Shown one piece after another: positions 33,132 to 40,046 of a stretch of DNA of 64,000 bases. The stretch's first letter is position 1. Each line of letters begins with the position of its first letter. The translations under genes and the position numbers were made by a program. This stretch comes from a candidate division BRC1 bacterium HGW-BRC1-1 (lineage in GTDB: Bacteria; Sumerlaeota; Sumerlaeia; Sumerlaeales; Sumerlaeaceae), in contig PHCB01000014.1 of NCBI GenBank assembly GCA_002842095.1, positions 62,001 through 126,000 on the forward strand, given 5' to 3'. A model generated the notes under the pieces. That model ran no database searches. It was given only the letters and a program-made list of their open reading frames with translations, and was not told where the DNA came from.

Positions 33132-34064
33132 TTACTCGCCATGAATCTCAAGGTCGGCGGTGTGTTTCCAGGCATGGTATGAGCTGCGAACCAGCGGCCC
33201 TGACTCCACATGGAGAAACCCGAGGGCCTCGGCGTAATCCTGCCACATCTTGAACTCGGACGGTTCGAGATAACGCTCCACTGCAAGCTGGTCCCCCGAT
33301 GGCTGGAGGTACTGTCCCAGCGTTACGATGTCGCACTCCGCCTCGCGCAGGTCGTTGAGCACCGCGCGGATCTCATCGTCGGTCTCGCCCAGGCCCAGCA
33401 TCAACCCTGACTTGGTGCGCAGACCCGGTCGCAATTCTTTGCATCGTTCCAGCAGCACCATCGTGCGCCAGTAGCGCGCCCCCCGCCGCACCTTGCGATA
33501 CAGGCGGGGAACCGTCTCGGTATTGTGGTTCAGAATATCGATGGGCGACCGCACCACGGTCGCCAGCAGGTCTGCTCGTCCCCGAAAATCAGGAATGAGA
33601 ACCTCGACCCGCGCCTCGGGCCGAAGACGTTTGATCGCCTCGGCACACAGGGCAAAATGCTTCGATCCCTGATCGGGCAAATCGTCGCGTGTCACGCTGG
33701 TTATAACAATGTGCGACAACCCCAACTCCGCCGCCGCCTGCGCAAGCCTCTCCGGCTCCGTAGCGTCGGGTGGCATCGCGCGCGGGTTGTTCTGCGTCAC
33801 GGCACAAAAGGTGCAGCCGCGCGTGCAGACATTTCCGAGAATCATAAACGTCGCCGTGTGATGCCCATAGCACTCGCCGATGTTTGGGCACTCGGCCTCT
33901 TCGCACACGGTGTGCAATCCATGACGCCGCAACACCTCGTTGGTCTCGCTGAAGTGGGCGCGCCCCGGCATACGCGCGCGCACCCACGCCGGGTGTTTAC
34001 GCGGGGCGGTGGTGCCGGACGATGATCCGTCCTCGTTGATATCCTCAGAGGGAATCGTGCTCAT
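33132..34064 (-). CDS. lipA: Lipoyl synthase
   Basis: 310 residues. Radical-SAM enzyme that inserts two sulfurs into octanoyl-protein. It shows the auxiliary cluster motif CEEAECPNIGEC (Cx4Cx5C), the SAM-cluster motif CTRGCTFC (Cx3Cx2C) and the C-terminal RSSYHA whose Ser binds the auxiliary cluster. The ATG at 34064 overlaps the lipB stop as ATGA; the longer open frame to 34367 is antisense noise over lipB. Fourth gene of the E2-like, E3-like, lipB, lipA run. Confidence 0.95.
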   Translation of the reverse strand: MSTIPSEDINEDGSSSGTTAPRKHPAWVRARMPGRAHFSETNEVLRRHGLHTVCEEAECPNIGECYGHHTATFMILGNVCTRGCTFCAVTQNNPRAMPPDATEPERLAQAAAELGLSHIVITSVTRDDLPDQGSKHFALCAEAIKRLRPEARVEVLIPDFRGRADLLATVVRSPIDILNHNTETVPRLYRKVRRGARYWRTMVLLERCKELRPGLRTKSGLMLGLGETDDEIRAVLNDLREAECDIVTLGQYLQPSGDQLAVERYLEPSEFKMWQDYAEALGFLHVESGPLVRSSYHAWKHTADLEIHGE

Positions 34065-34825
34065 GGCTCGGGGGTCTCCGTGGGCTTCGGTGAAAAGTCT
34101 GCAGCGCGCAGCGATTCCGTCAGATATACATGCACGGTTCTCGCCGCCTGGCTCAAGGTGGGCAAGCGTCTCACGCCACGCCGGCTGCGGCGCAGTTCGC
34201 GCTCCAGCGAAGTCATCACAGCAGGGTTGAGACCGCACGGTTTGAAGGAGCGAAACGCCCGCAGATCGGGATGGATGTTCAGCGCAAACCCATGACCCGA
34301 AATCCAGCGGCGGGCCGATATTCCGATGGAAGCAATTTTGCGGGGCGACGCTTCGTTGCCCACCCAAACGCCGGTGTGGCCGGGCCTGTTAAAAGCCTTT
34401 AACCCAAAATTATTTTCGAGATAAGCCCGCAGGCCATCTTCCAGAGCACGCAGATATTGATGAATGTCCGGGCTTGTGCCGTTCGAGCGGCGTGTGAGGT
34501 CGATGACCGGATACCCAATCAACTGTCCCGGCCCGTGCCAGGTGGCAAGCCCTCCGCGGGCTACCTCCACAAGCGGCGTTTCGCAATCTTCCGGCGGCAT
34601 GTCTTCGGTTGGCGTTGCCCGTCCATAGGTGATGACAGGCTGATGCTCGAAGTATAAAATCGTATCGCCGATGGTTCCCTCGCGCCGCTGACGCTGGGCT
34701 TCCTCCATGATCGCAACGCCCTCCACATAACTGTTTCGATCATAAAATTCGTGAGTGATGCCGGTCATGGCGAGAATGCCAAATTCTGCCGGTTCGGGCG
34801 CAATACTATTGTTAATCGGGTTCAT
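34061..34825 (-). CDS. lipB: Octanoyltransferase
   Basis: 254 residues. Moves octanoyl from acyl carrier protein to the lipoyl-domain lysine. Motifs: RGGLATWHGPGQLIGYPV, KIASIGISARRWISGHGFALN with the catalytic Lys, and FKPCGL with the acyl-thioester Cys. About 35 residues longer than usual at the C-terminus. It starts 52 bp after the E3-like gene and overlaps lipA. A start at the MTGITHEFYDR methionine (~19 residues in) is possible. Confidence 0.95.
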   Translation of the reverse strand: MNPINNSIAPEPAEFGILAMTGITHEFYDRNSYVEGVAIMEEAQRQRREGTIGDTILYFEHQPVITYGRATPTEDMPPEDCETPLVEVARGGLATWHGPGQLIGYPVIDLTRRSNGTSPDIHQYLRALEDGLRAYLENNFGLKAFNRPGHTGVWVGNEASPRKIASIGISARRWISGHGFALNIHPDLRAFRSFKPCGLNPAVMTSLERELRRSRRGVRRLPTLSQAARTVHVYLTESLRAADFSPKPTETPEP

Positions 34826-34877
34826 GAGCGAGGGTTCATCCGTATGACAGAACAGTATCCTTCACCGCGCTCCCTGT

Positions 34878-36302
34878 TCATCCCGAGCGTCGCCGAGTGC
34901 CCACCGCAGCCGCGGCGGCCTCCAGCGCTTCCATGCGAGACGGTATCAGCGCACCCATCCGGGCGAGATCACTCACCGTATATTCGAACCGCATCGCCAG
35001 GGTTGCGGCACCGACAATCTCATTCGCGGAGGAACCGGCAACATGCACACCGAGAATCTCACCCGTTCCCCGATCCGCGATGACCTTCACGAAACCGGTG
35101 GTATCCTCTTCGAGGACCGCCGCCAGGTTCTCATCGAAAGAGGCATAACCAATCCCAACTTCAGCCGCACGATTGCGCGCCTCCTCCTCGCTGAGCCCCA
35201 CCCACGCCGCCAGCGCCATGCTGCCACCCGGAAAATGATCCGGTGGCAGGGCCGCCTTTATTCCCGCCACATGCTCCGCGACGAACACACCCTCCAAACG
35301 AGCCTGCTCGGGCGGTACCCCGCCACCCAGGACGCTGCCCGCAGCGAAAATGTGAGGCGTATGCGTCTGCAAATTTCTGTCCACCGTCACGCCGCCATCA
35401 TCAGGCGATAATTGCACATTCAGCTTTTTCAGCCCCAGCCGCCGCGAGGCCGGATGCCTCTCCCCACAGTCGGCCGCACAGAGCGAAAAAATCTCCTCAC
35501 CATTTCCGGTGGTGACAACCACTTCGCCTGACGCATCAACCACTTCTGCTCCGGCAAAACTTTCATCGAGCAAAAGCCTGCATCCCAGCGCATCCAACTC
35601 CCGTTCCACGAAATCAGAAACAGCCGCATCGGCCTCCGGGAGCAACCTCGGAGAGTCTGACAACACAGTAACCCTCGAACCCAATTGAGCAAAGAGCAGC
35701 GCCATGTTGCAGGCCCGACGGCCCTCGCCGAGGATGACCAGGCTGTCTGGCAATTCAGCCAGAAACAGAAGGTCCATACCCATCAGAAGAGCCCTGCCAT
35801 CCGGCTCGAAACCGTCTCGTGGCACAGCAATGGACCCTGTCGTCACCAGAATGTTTCTCGCGTCGATGCCATGAAGTTCATCACCAGTTTCAGGGTGCAG
35901 CACAACGGCCGATCCCGTGGATGAAAGGTAGCCGCGACCTTCGTAGAAACGGACCTCCCCCTGACGCAACAGCGACTGACGGTTGGCCTCACTGCTTTTT
36001 GCCACGACATCAGAAAGATGAATCGTGGAAAGATCAACGGAGCGACCTGCCGCCGCCTCTCCCCCACTGTCACCCTCCGCAATTTGAGAGTCGCGCCATC
36101 TTTTCGCGAAGCTCCACAACACGCCAAAAGGCAGGCCGTCTTCATGAACAAACGCTCCGCCCGGTCCTGCGAGGCGCTGCTCCACGATGGCTGTTTTCAA
36201 ACCGAGTTCACTGGCACGCTGGGCCGCAGCGCAACCGGCCTGACCGGCACCAATGATCAGCAAGTCGACCGCATCGTTTTCCTCGTACGGCTGGCCGGTC
36301 AT
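34878..36302 (-). CDS. Dihydrolipoamide dehydrogenase-like pseudoenzyme (E3-like)
   Basis: 474 residues aligned by eye over the full Lpd length. The first FAD motif is intact (LLIIGAGQAGCAAA, ~14-27). The redox pair expected in GGTCLNxGC is absent: the block reads GGAFVHEDGLPF, with Phe51 and Gly56 in the Cys positions. The NAD motif is GEGRRAC, not GxGxxG. The FAD-binding GD is GS (IFAAGSVLGG). The dimer domain is well kept (TTGFVKVIADRGTGEILGVHVAG), but the catalytic His region AHPTxSE reads IPSRMEA. It cannot act as a normal lipoamide dehydrogenase. Its start overlaps the E2-like stop (ATGA). Confidence 0.85.
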   Translation of the reverse strand: MTGQPYEENDAVDLLIIGAGQAGCAAAQRASELGLKTAIVEQRLAGPGGAFVHEDGLPFGVLWSFAKRWRDSQIAEGDSGGEAAAGRSVDLSTIHLSDVVAKSSEANRQSLLRQGEVRFYEGRGYLSSTGSAVVLHPETGDELHGIDARNILVTTGSIAVPRDGFEPDGRALLMGMDLLFLAELPDSLVILGEGRRACNMALLFAQLGSRVTVLSDSPRLLPEADAAVSDFVERELDALGCRLLLDESFAGAEVVDASGEVVVTTGNGEEIFSLCAADCGERHPASRRLGLKKLNVQLSPDDGGVTVDRNLQTHTPHIFAAGSVLGGGVPPEQARLEGVFVAEHVAGIKAALPPDHFPGGSMALAAWVGLSEEEARNRAAEVGIGYASFDENLAAVLEEDTTGFVKVIADRGTGEILGVHVAGSSANEIVGAATLAMRFEYTVSDLARMGALIPSRMEALEAAAAAVGTRRRSG

Positions 36303-37927
36303 TGAGTGAAATCCGCAAGCAGAAGAGGGTGCTCGAGCATCTCGCGAATATGCCCCAGAAGGCGGGCGGCACGCAGGGGTCTCACCGCACCATCCTGGGC
36401 AGAAAACCCGATGCGAATGACGTGCTTAACATCCCGTGGTTCAGAACCTGCCCGAAATTCTCGCACGGCCCCGAACGATAGCACCGGTGTGGCCCCCTCG
36501 TCCAGCGGTCCTGAGAAGTCATCAATGCCCATGGCGCCAAAATTGACCACCGCCAGGGCAACGGCGGGCATGTCGAATATTCCCTCGTTCGCATCAGACT
36601 CTTCGTCATCTCCTGCGAGATGCACATCGTCTTCGTCAATGCTTCCGCCCAGTGCCGTCAGAGCGATCTCCTCCATCCGGCCGGCCATTTCGCTGAGGGA
36701 CATGGCGCGAGCATCGTCCAGGCCCAACCATGCGATCTCATCCCCCGCTGCAACTCCCAGAGCCACCGCGAGTGGGTTCGTGTCGGAGTCGAGAGAGCCC
36801 AGAGGGCAATCTGCCAGCGCCATGGCGGCGGCCCGTGCGACCACTGCAGTCAGCAATTCTTCGGCGTCCCCCTCGGATTCCAGCAGAAACAGTGTCTTCA
36901 TGACAGAGGTCACGTTCACCTCGCAGCCCATCGTCATCAGGGCCGGTGCATACACAACCATCAAGGGGTCATCGGACATCGTCTCCGACTCGTCATCATG
37001 TTCCCCTGCCTCAAGCCCCTCCACCAGCAAAAGGTCGTCCAGTTCCTCGCTCTCGCCGAGCTTGGGTAGTTTAATAGCAGACGGTTGTTCGTCCTCTGCA
37101 GACTGCCCATTCATCGATGACATTTCAATCACGCGAACCTGTTCACCGTTCACTGAATCCGCGACCATCTCCAGAAACGCGGCCATCTCGCTGTCAGCTT
37201 CCACGCTCTCGCCGAACGCTTCTTCGCTCTCTTCCCCACCTTCGGCATTTTCCCACCCGTCAGAGTCCTCATCCAGCGGATCCTGCGGTCGCGCTTCGAT
37301 TCTCCCCTCGGCTTTGCGGGAGGCGATATAAGCGAGTACGTCCTCTTTCGTGATGCGGCCCCCGCGCCCCGAGCCGCGAACAAGCATCAAGTCGACGCCG
37401 CGCTCATCAGCGATGGCATGGGCAAGTGGACTCGCATTAATCACGGGTACAAAATCGTGTGGTGTCGCAGAATCCTCATCCCCACTTCCCTCCGAAGTGG
37501 ACTGGGCCGCAGCCGCTATTTCCTTCTCCACCCGCTTACGATCGCGCGACGAGACCCATGGTGGCGCATTATCCTCCACGCCATCCCCGGCGTCCATTTC
37601 GTCCTCATCGGTGGGATCGGTGTCATCCGAGGTTTCAGACTCCTCATCGGGGAAATCATCATCTTCGTCGGGAGGCTGCAGATCCATATCATCCTTCATG
37701 ATCAATGTGGCCATCACTGCACCAACGGGAACCATATCGCCGGGAAACACTCGAATGCCGGTGATGCGTCCACCTTCGAGGGTTTCAATCTCCATGTTCG
37801 CCTTGTCGGTTTCCACCTCGGCAATCACATCACCGGCAGCGACTCGTTGTCCCTCCTCCACATTCCATCGCAGAAGTTTTCCTTCGGACATCGATTCGCT
37901 CAATTTTGGCATCAGGATATCGGGCAT
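36299..37927 (-). CDS. Lipoyl-domain E2-like protein lacking the acyltransferase motif
   Basis: 542 residues. Residues 1-78 are a lipoyl domain with lipoylation Lys42 in ETDKANME. A very acidic Asp/Glu-rich linker (~80-125) follows, then an E3-binding-like domain (~165-210; INASPLAHAIADERGVDL, GRGGRITKEDVLAYI), another acidic linker, and a shortened 2-oxoacid acyltransferase-like domain (~330-542; VNFGAMGIDDFSGPLDEG, FGAVREF). The catalytic DHRxxDG is replaced by QDGAVRP, so His is Asp and Asp is Arg. ATG at 37927 is preferred over 37933 because GAGGAA sits closer to it. First gene of the E3-like/lipB/lipA operon. Confidence 0.85.
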   Translation of the reverse strand: MPDILMPKLSESMSEGKLLRWNVEEGQRVAAGDVIAEVETDKANMEIETLEGGRITGIRVFPGDMVPVGAVMATLIMKDDMDLQPPDEDDDFPDEESETSDDTDPTDEDEMDAGDGVEDNAPPWVSSRDRKRVEKEIAAAAQSTSEGSGDEDSATPHDFVPVINASPLAHAIADERGVDLMLVRGSGRGGRITKEDVLAYIASRKAEGRIEARPQDPLDEDSDGWENAEGGEESEEAFGESVEADSEMAAFLEMVADSVNGEQVRVIEMSSMNGQSAEDEQPSAIKLPKLGESEELDDLLLVEGLEAGEHDDESETMSDDPLMVVYAPALMTMGCEVNVTSVMKTLFLLESEGDAEELLTAVVARAAAMALADCPLGSLDSDTNPLAVALGVAAGDEIAWLGLDDARAMSLSEMAGRMEEIALTALGGSIDEDDVHLAGDDEESDANEGIFDMPAVALAVVNFGAMGIDDFSGPLDEGATPVLSFGAVREFRAGSEPRDVKHVIRIGFSAQDGAVRPLRAARLLGHIREMLEHPLLLADFTQ

Positions 37928-38042
37928 TCTCATTCCTCGTCAGCATCATCGGCCCATTTCAGGCGGCTCATGGTAACGGTCAACAACCTCCCATGTTCAA
38001 GCCCAAAGGCGCGTTGACACACGACTCAAAGCCAACCATGGT

Positions 38043-40046
38043 TTGCGGGCTTTGAGCACATTCGCCAAAAACACCGTCGTCTTTTCGTCACTCACCCTCC
38101 TCAGCCGCATCTCGGGGCTGCTGCGCGTGATGGCTTTTGCGGCCATTCTCGGCAGCGGTCGCGGGGCTGCCGGCCGCCTCAACGACGCCTACCAACTCGC
38201 CAACACCATCCCCAACATCATTTACGAATTCATCATGGGCGGCATCCTCAGCGCTATTTTCATCCCTGTACTCGTGCGGGCTCAGGAAAAAAGTGGCCGG
38301 ACCTCCCCCGAAGCATGGCGAGTGGCAAACCTTCTGCTGGGTTCTGTGGGATTAATCTTAGCAGCTGCATCCATGGTGGGCGTTTTGCTCGCCCCCCAGA
38401 TCACCTGGCTCATGACCAATTTCTCGCATGACCCGTCAGCCGCCCAGAGCAAAGAGCTGGCCACCTACTTCTTCAGATTCTTTGCCCCGCAAATGTTCTT
38501 TTACGGCCTGAACGCGGTCTTCATGGCCATCCTCAATTCCCACCAGGTATTTGCCATCACCGCCGCTGCCCCCATCATTAACAATGCAGTGGTGCTGGTG
38601 ACCCTCGGCCTCTATCACGCCGGCATTATTGACCTGACAGGTCTGGGCATCGGCACAACGGCCGGCGTTGCGGCCATGGCCCTCGTGCAAATTCCATCAC
38701 TGTTAAAAATCGGAATGCCCCTGCGCCCCCAATTCAACTTCCGGGACCCTGTCTTCCTCGGTATCACGGCATTGGGCGCCCCCGTGGTGGTTGTCGCCAT
38801 AGCCAACCTTATCGGCACCGCTATCCGCGCGAACCTCCTCTACACCGTGCCCGGCGGCTTCACCTCTTATACCTTTTCCTTCATCCTCATCATGATGCCC
38901 TACGGCGTATTTGCCGTTTCCGTAGCCACAGTGCTTTACCCGGCCCTGTCGCGTTCTGCCGCCGAGATGAACCTGTCCGCTTTCCGCAGTACGATGTCCC
39001 TCGGGTTGCGTTGGACCACTCTGGTCATGCTGCCCGTAGCTCTTGGGTTGGCTATTCTGGCTGAACCAACCGCCCGGGTATTCTTCGAGCGGGGTCAGTT
39101 CACCTACGCCGATACACGATTCACCTCGTCTTTCCTGCGCATTTACGCCCTCAGCATCTTCCCCTACGCGCTGGTCATTTTCGTAACACGCGTCTTCTAT
39201 TCCTTTTCCGACACGAAGACCCCGGCCTGGATCAACGTCGGTGGTGTTTTAATTAACGTCGGGCTCAATTTCCTCCTGCTTCGGTGGATGAGCGTTCCGG
39301 GCATTGCCCTGGCCTCGGTCATCACGTACTCCCTCACCACGGCGGTTTCTCTGTTTATCATTCGACGCCGCTACCATGGCTTGGGAGGAGTACCCTTTGC
39401 CTCGGCCATTACCCGCATGCTCATCGCTGGTGGTGTCATGGGCGTTGTGGTCGCTGGTGGATTGGTTCTCACGCGACCGGCTTCGGTGATTGTTTCCAGC
39501 GGACAACGTGCAGAGATCTTTACGCCCGACTCGGCGCGCATGGGCAGCACACTCATTATCAACGACGAAGCCTCACTGCGCAGTTATTTCAAAACCTGGG
39601 ATGTCGCCGATTCAGAAATTCCCTCCATCAATTTCGATAAAGAATCTTTCATAGCCATCCTTGGCCCCTCCAGCGAGACGACTGTCACGCTTAGTCTCGA
39701 TCAATTTACCACGACGGACGACGGCAGTGCGTCCGCCACCGTGCTGGTATACAGGCCCACACAAGCCCAACCCCCGACGCCTCGCGTCATACACATTCCC
39801 CAATACCCCCCCTTCATCCACCTTGTCAGCAGACAGCATGTAAGTACTGTTGATCTCGAACTGCGCATCTCCGACGCCACCCCCCCCAGGGGCTGGGCCA
39901 AAGCACTCCGCGCCCCCGAGGCACTCCGCCTCCTGATGCTCATAATCCTGGGTGCCATCACCTATCTGGGAGTCGCTTTTCTGCTGCGGCTGGATGAAGC
40001 GCGACAGTTCCCGCAATACGTCTTGAAGCGCCTTCGTCGCCGTTGA
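38043..40046 (+). CDS. murJ: Lipid II flippase MurJ with large periplasmic insertion
   Basis: 667 residues against ~510 usual. The N-terminal ~475 residues are a normal MVF/MurJ core (RISGLLRVMAFAAILG, AYQLANTIPNIIYEFIMGG, ARVFFERGQFT, YSFSDTKTPAWINV). Between the thirteenth and last helices, at ~480-615, lies an extra soluble domain (STLIINDEASLRSYFK, INFDKESFIAILG, FIHLVSRQHVS) whose pattern recalls PrcB-type beta domains; topology puts it in the periplasm. The final helix (LRLLMLIILGAITYLGVAFL) matches normal MurJ. Start is TTG 38043, or TTG 38052; no strong ribosome site. Confidence 0.88.
   Translation: MRALSTFAKNTVVFSSLTLLSRISGLLRVMAFAAILGSGRGAAGRLNDAYQLANTIPNIIYEFIMGGILSAIFIPVLVRAQEKSGRTSPEAWRVANLLLGSVGLILAAASMVGVLLAPQITWLMTNFSHDPSAAQSKELATYFFRFFAPQMFFYGLNAVFMAILNSHQVFAITAAAPIINNAVVLVTLGLYHAGIIDLTGLGIGTTAGVAAMALVQIPSLLKIGMPLRPQFNFRDPVFLGITALGAPVVVVAIANLIGTAIRANLLYTVPGGFTSYTFSFILIMMPYGVFAVSVATVLYPALSRSAAEMNLSAFRSTMSLGLRWTTLVMLPVALGLAILAEPTARVFFERGQFTYADTRFTSSFLRIYALSIFPYALVIFVTRVFYSFSDTKTPAWINVGGVLINVGLNFLLLRWMSVPGIALASVITYSLTTAVSLFIIRRRYHGLGGVPFASAITRMLIAGGVMGVVVAGGLVLTRPASVIVSSGQRAEIFTPDSARMGSTLIINDEASLRSYFKTWDVADSEIPSINFDKESFIAILGPSSETTVTLSLDQFTTTDDGSASATVLVYRPTQAQPPTPRVIHIPQYPPFIHLVSRQHVSTVDLELRISDATPPRGWAKALRAPEALRLLMLIILGAITYLGVAFLLRLDEARQFPQYVLKRLRRR

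Follow-up and report, generated by a model that had tools for sequence, protein, structure and literature searches.

A probable non-dehydrogenase lipoyl carrier derived from an E2 subunit and encoded with LipB and LipA in candidate division BRC1 bacterium HGW-BRC1-1 and its family

Candidate division BRC1 bacterium HGW-BRC1-1 carries, on the minus strand of a 64,000-nt stretch of contig PHCB01000014.1 (the window, i.e., the whole stretch analysed here), a cassette of four genes at 33132-37933 that encode an E2-like protein (psi-E2), an E3-like protein (psi-E3), the octanoyltransferase LipB, and the lipoyl synthase LipA. We consider it quite probable that this locus encodes a conserved lipoyl carrier that is not part of a dehydrogenase. 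A more specific reading, which we favour tentatively, is that a dehydrogenase operon has been reduced to a dedicated lipoyl-carrier cassette, with a carrier that works outside 2-oxoacid dehydrogenases and with psi-E3 as its likely electron partner. What sets the locus apart is not its gene order but the fact that active sites were lost while the lipoyl domain was retained.

Results

Comparisons within the family drew on eight searchable genomes (the window genome and G001-G007) from seven genera, mostly draft assemblies. psi-E2 (544 amino acids [aa]; 36299..37933, minus strand, with an alternative start at a second ATG at 37927) consists of a lipoyl domain, an acidic linker, an E3-binding domain, and a pseudo-catalytic domain. 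Its lipoyl domain (residues 5-77; 37703..37921, minus strand) matches Pfam PF00364 (Biotin_lipoyl; 4.1e-20) and not the GcvH family PF01597, and the lipoyl-attachment lysine (codon at 37802..37804, minus strand), which is Lys44 when counted from the first ATG and Lys42 when counted from the second, lies in the motif ETDKAN, of which DKAN is invariant in all eight lipoyl sequences in the family alignment. The E3-binding (peripheral subunit-binding) domain (residues 165-200; 37334..37441, minus strand; PF02817, 9.2e-13) is present in six of the eight family members and missing from both forms that consist of a lipoyl domain only. For the pseudo-catalytic domain (about residues 333-543; 36305..36937, minus strand), Pfam returned a fragment match only, at 15.6 bits against a cut-off of 23; when profiles of the family's C-terminal portions and of intact E2 catalytic domains were compared by hhalign, the probability was 99.2 over 191 columns, and this half is therefore a degenerate E2 catalytic domain without DHRxxDG, a motif found by alignment in none of the six family members that have a core domain.

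psi-E3 (474 aa; 34878..36302, minus strand) is a full-length homologue of dihydrolipoamide dehydrogenase (Lpd), scoring 212 bits against a cut-off of 408.8 for NCBIfam TIGR01350. In the alignment, the redox disulfide CxxxxC is found in none of the four psi-E3 sequences of the family, and in all four the catalytic His of HPTxxE is lost and the NAD-binding GxGxxG/A motif is altered; relative to the family Lpds, psi-E3 has GEGRRACN in place of the NAD motif GGGxxGxE, GS in place of the FAD motif GD, and IPS in place of HPT. At the predicted FAD site, GxGxxG and E41 are invariant, and the Asp of the GD motif is lost. The segment GGAFVHEDGLP (residues 48-58; 36129..36161, minus strand) replaces GGTCLNVGCIP, and GGAxxHExx(I/L)P constitutes a new motif, invariant in all four sequences, at the site of the former disulfide. 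Of the 441 ungapped columns in the psi-E3 alignment, only 44 have an invariant residue that is old or mixed, and a new invariant residue occupies 11; three of these 11 (A50, H53, and E54) fall in the five residues where the first half of the disulfide had been, with C24 located in the FAD loop. At the overall density of derived invariant columns, a segment of this length should contain about 0.1, and the former disulfide segment therefore resembles a site that was rebuilt more than the product of random loss; this is a rough guide, as the four sequences share ancestry. A profile built from the four psi-E3 sequences scored its own members at 645-755 bits and the best protein of 382 other genomes at 294, and in a tree psi-E3 forms a single clade set apart from Lpds (support 100/99) on very long branches, because of which its exact position within the Lpd tree was not used.

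Pfam matches and the family alignment for psi-E2, together with alignment of psi-E3 to the Lpds of its own family, bear out what an earlier note had read from the window, namely an E2-like protein that keeps the lipoyl lysine and has lost DHRxxDG and an E3-like protein that has lost its disulfide, NAD loop, and catalytic His. Its view that the locus does not specify a 2-oxoacid dehydrogenase is also supported.

A lipoyl protein of the cassette type occurs in every one of the eight family genomes and is encoded with lipB-lipA in seven. The window genome and G002 carry psi-E2, psi-E3, lipB, and lipA; G001, G004, and G007 carry psi-E2, lipB, and lipA; G006 has an 85-aa lipoyl-only protein followed by psi-E3, lipB, and lipA; G003 has an 88-aa lipoyl-only protein with lipB and lipA; and G005 encodes psi-E2 and psi-E3 on one contig and lipB-lipA on another. 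psi-E3 is hence found in four of the eight genomes and the psi-E2/psi-E3 pair in three genera (those of the window genome, G002, and G005). Each lipoyl-only gene immediately precedes psi-E3-lipB-lipA or lipB-lipA, and the intervening gaps, 67 and 7 bp, are too short to hold gene remnants; because two genera end exactly after the lipoyl domain, this domain would by its sequence record be the part that matters. Within the family, lipoyl domains are on average 52% identical, E3-binding domains 48%, pseudo-catalytic domains 25%, and psi-E3 sequences 30%, as compared to 58% for LipA, 43% for LipB, 70% for Lpd, and 62% for AceF. Between G001 and G007, which belong to one genus, the nonsynonymous difference (pN) is 0.20 for the lipoyl domain and 0.45 for the pseudo-catalytic domain; synonymous sites are saturated in this comparison, so that the ratio of nonsynonymous to synonymous change (dN/dS) is unusable.

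Decay confined to one lineage, which the earlier note had named as an outcome that would refute its proposal, does not fit the occurrence of the pair in three genera, of psi-E3 with a lipoyl-only protein in G006, and of the lipoyl protein in all eight genomes, and the lost motifs recur in several genera, for which reason an assembly error was rejected as their cause. By contrast, treatment of the E2-like/E3-like pair as a unit did not hold; what stays constant is the lipoyl domain together with lipB-lipA, and psi-E3 as well as the C-terminal half of psi-E2 come and go.

LipB (34061..34825, minus strand) scores 132.6 against a cut-off of 83.55 for NCBIfam TIGR00214 and LipA (33132..34064, minus strand) 383.8 against a cut-off of 310 for TIGR00510; the catalytic Lys and Cys of LipB and, in LipA, both cysteine motifs along with RSSYHA are kept in the family alignment. 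The family LipB is divergent from other LipB proteins. Each family genome has one LipA and exactly two proteins of the LplA/LipB superfamily, the cassette LipB and one LplA-like protein. The window genome also encodes intact aceE-aceF, sucA-sucB, and gcvT-gcvH-gcvP as well as a canonical lpd; the check for a normal E2/E3 set that the earlier note had called for was thus positive, and the pair is not the sole E2/E3 set of the cell. Because LipA and LipB of the cassette are the only ones detected in the genome, the enzymes encoded in the operon are those of the cell at large and not private ones, and the earlier description of an operon with "their own lipoylation enzymes" is misleading; in the window genome these two enzymes presumably also serve pyruvate dehydrogenase (PDH), 2-oxoglutarate dehydrogenase (OGDH), and GcvH.

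The LplA-like protein (L049:6241-6957 and homologues in all eight family genomes) is 238-255 aa long where the start is clear, and has no accessory domain; the Cys of QGPGCLN is invariant in it, and a Lys is conserved. Its gene adjoins aceE in G001, G004, and G007 and lies near lpd in the window genome. The protein may function as a transferase instead of a ligase; its nearest solved structures are lipoate ligases. AceF of the window genome has an E3-binding domain of its own, and SucB has no PF02817 match. Altogether SucB is without an E3-binding domain in seven family genomes (L001, L187, L192, L193, L195, L196, and L198), as judged by Pfam for the window genome and by inspection of the linkers by eye in the six others, with the G007 gene being partial.

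G006, a reduced-looking genome of 1.9 Mb, is the relative without detectable clients for lipoylation. At a completeness of 66%, no E2 catalytic domain, GcvP, canonical Lpd, or SucA-type E1 was detected in it, nor any GcvH beyond its own lipoyl-only protein; the E1 search did find transketolase and DXS-sized proteins. G006 keeps a complete lipoate synthesis set, LipB and LipA included, and also retains the lipoyl protein, psi-E3, and the LplA-like protein. The chance of missing four independent loci at this completeness is 0.34 to the fourth power, or about 0.013, and G006, as one incomplete genome, speaks for a function of the carrier's own over a role as a relay or as an E3-binding protein (E3BP).

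Of the genomes in other phyla that encode the best-matching LipB relatives, G099 has the operon E1a-E1b-E2-E3-lipB, G240 and G263 have lipA-E1a-E1b-E2-E3-lipB, and G137 has E3-E2-lipB-lipA, in all four cases with DHRxxDG and CxxxxC intact; G027, which belongs to the same class as the window genome, has E1a-E1b-E2-lipA. Given the intact E1a-E1b-E2-E3-lipB operons of other phyla, the window locus most likely represents a pyruvate-dehydrogenase-type operon minus E1 and minus the E2 and E3 active sites, with an ancestral gene order that we infer from these arrangements.

Gene coordinates agree with the earlier note on the arrangement of the four genes, which lie on the minus strand in the order E2-like, E3-like, lipB, and lipA, with ATGA overlaps at two of three joints (psi-E2/psi-E3 and lipB/lipA) and a gap of about 52 bp from psi-E3 to lipB. 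Its statement that no E1 gene is nearby is likewise correct, as the E1 genes of the window genome sit on other contigs. With regard to its suggestion that the same four-gene order be sought elsewhere, the order does recur, being shared by the window genome and G002; it is unremarkable on its own, because E2-E3-lipB(-lipA) is common elsewhere for ordinary, intact enzymes. A promoter and terminator scan of the locus gave nothing informative. The divergent neighbour murJ (38043..40046, plus strand), which is outside the system, adjoins the cassette in five of the eight family genomes (the window genome, G001, G002, G004, and G007).

Lipoyl-only proteins were also observed in other settings. A single unrelated bacterial family includes three genomes in which a stand-alone 78-aa lipoyl protein follows lipB-lipA (L254:1879-2223 in G339, L255:7558-7818 in G200, and L256:6361-6597 in G053), which is an independent case of the same core. 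G275 has a 109-aa lipoyl-only open reading frame (ORF; L235:8484-8813) flanked by an intact E3 on one side and an intact E2-lipB-lipA run on the other, and in G003 a 674-aa E1 alpha-beta-like fusion is followed by a 101-aa lipoyl-only ORF (L155:5787-8113), which suggests a further dehydrogenase-like system in which the lipoyl domain is detached.

Discussion

Under the reading that we tentatively favour, an ancestral E1a-E1b-E2-E3-lipB-lipA operon would have lost its E1 genes and the active sites of E2 and E3 and been kept as a lipoyl-carrier cassette, with aceE-aceF supplying PDH in the cell. LipB would move an octanoyl group from the acyl carrier protein onto Lys44 of psi-E2, LipA would convert it to lipoyl, and the lipoylated psi-E2 would act as a free carrier that is not part of any 2-oxoacid dehydrogenase; in four genera, psi-E3, a flavoprotein-like protein with a His-Glu motif, would most likely exchange electrons with, or otherwise act on, the lipoyl arm. 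We infer lipoylation, FAD binding, the redox role, and a physical partnership of psi-E2 and psi-E3 from sequence. Several observations weigh against this reading. Each present as a single copy, LipA and LipB have to supply PDH, OGDH, and GcvH as well in seven of the eight genomes, and G006 is only 66% complete. psi-E3 cannot be essential to the carrier because it is missing in half of the genomes, and its sequence yields no readable redox mechanism because the disulfide is gone, the NAD loop damaged, and the FAD Asp lost; its AlphaFold models (pLDDT 34 from the single sequence; pLDDT 48 and pTM 0.40 with three homologues) are too low for use. A bolder version, in which the cassette is a self-contained carrier system outside all known lipoyl-dependent complexes, psi-E3 represents a new class of E3-derived flavoproteins with His-Glu for the disulfide that acts on protein-bound lipoyl, and the carrier in G006 is the only use of lipoic acid left, strikes us as unlikely.

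The nearest working analogue, by likeness of design and not as a family match, is GcvH-L with its own ligase LplA2 in the extended SirTM operon of Staphylococcus and Streptococcus, in which OYE, a flavin oxidoreductase from the same operon, binds lipoylated GcvH-L (PMC4518038). Both systems would comprise a dedicated lipoyl carrier, outside the known lipoyl-dependent complexes, that is encoded with a lipoylation enzyme and, in the SirTM case, with flavin oxidoreductases (PMC4518038); however, that carrier is GcvH-like, its enzyme is a scavenging ligase, and its operon includes a sirtuin and a macrodomain, whereas the window cassette would combine an E2-derived carrier with LipB and LipA and an E3-derived partner, and it has neither a sirtuin nor a macrodomain among its four genes. 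In clusters of sLpl(AB) and LipS1/S2 with the dedicated carrier LbpA, lipoate assembly genes likewise stand with an FAD oxidoreductase, LipT (PMC10332631, PMC6067878), a flavoprotein linked to lipoate assembly (PMC10332631); LipT is not a family match to psi-E3, which is Lpd-derived and whose NAD loop is damaged. Ordinary PDH operons of the type E1a-E1b-E2-E3-lipB(-lipA) (G099, G240, and G263) share the order of E2, E3, and lipB but differ in the presence of E1 genes and intact DHRxxDG and CxxxxC.

Among the alternatives, a lipoyl relay, which we regard as doubtful, would make psi-E2 the obligatory first acceptor for LipB and LipA, with the LplA-like protein then passing lipoyl to AceF, SucB, and GcvH. 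Such a route is established in Firmicutes (PMC10332631), where the Bacillus subtilis GcvH relay (LipM, LipA, and LipL) likewise uses a small lipoyl first acceptor and a separate LplA-like transferase (PMC10332631), and it would agree with the linkage of the cassette to the only LipB and LipA detected, with the divergence of the family LipB, and with the single short LplA-like protein, with invariant Cys and Lys, in every family genome and beside aceE in three. The acceptor here, by contrast, is E2-derived and linked to lipB-lipA, and the LplA-like protein, a candidate transferase, is closest to lipoate ligases; moreover, seven of the eight genomes have a normal GcvH that could itself be the relay, G006 retains the cassette and the LplA-like protein with no detectable client, and a relay leaves psi-E3 and the retained E3-binding domain unexplained. 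Slow erosion, in which only lipB and lipA are needed and the E2-like and E3-like genes are progressively truncated and lost relics of an old operon, has a lower probability still. The pseudo-catalytic domain and psi-E3 do diverge fast, and two truncations, four absences of psi-E3, and the prior loss of E1 are what erosion would produce; yet reading frames are intact wherever the genes are present, despite synonymous sites that are saturated already within one genus, the lipoyl domain is kept in all eight genomes with less than half the pN of the pseudo-catalytic domain, truncation in two genera ends exactly behind the lipoyl domain, and psi-E3 carries a new conserved motif at its old active site.

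A role as E3BP (protein X), in which psi-E2 would dock real Lpd onto PDH or OGDH, seems to us very improbable. The eukaryotic protein (PDHX) has the same architecture of a lipoyl domain, an E3-binding domain, and a core without catalytic residues (PMC7494870, PMC10156792) and is among the matches in the PDB, and OGDH would be the likelier target because the family SucB, with no PF02817 match in the window genome and no such domain in the linkers of six others (one gene partial), has no E3-binding domain of its own. PDHX is, however, a subunit of an active PDH, whereas the window gene is unlinked to any dehydrogenase and stands with lipB-lipA rather than sucAB, AceF has its own E3-binding domain, and G006 keeps the cassette with no OGDH, PDH, or Lpd detectable. 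Two relatives, G003 and G006, have a lipoyl protein without the E3-binding domain; as G003 has OGDH and its SucB also is without that domain, a general function as E3BP of OGDH was rejected.

To our knowledge, lipoic acid is known from few enzyme systems, i.e., 2-oxoacid dehydrogenases, glycine cleavage, sHdr/LbpA sulfur oxidation, and GcvH-L. A conserved, E2-derived carrier that is encoded with the enzymes that make lipoate and has dropped all dehydrogenase activity would thus point to a further use of this cofactor or to a new route for its assembly, and psi-E3 would provide a testable example of a disulfide reductase rebuilt around His-Glu.

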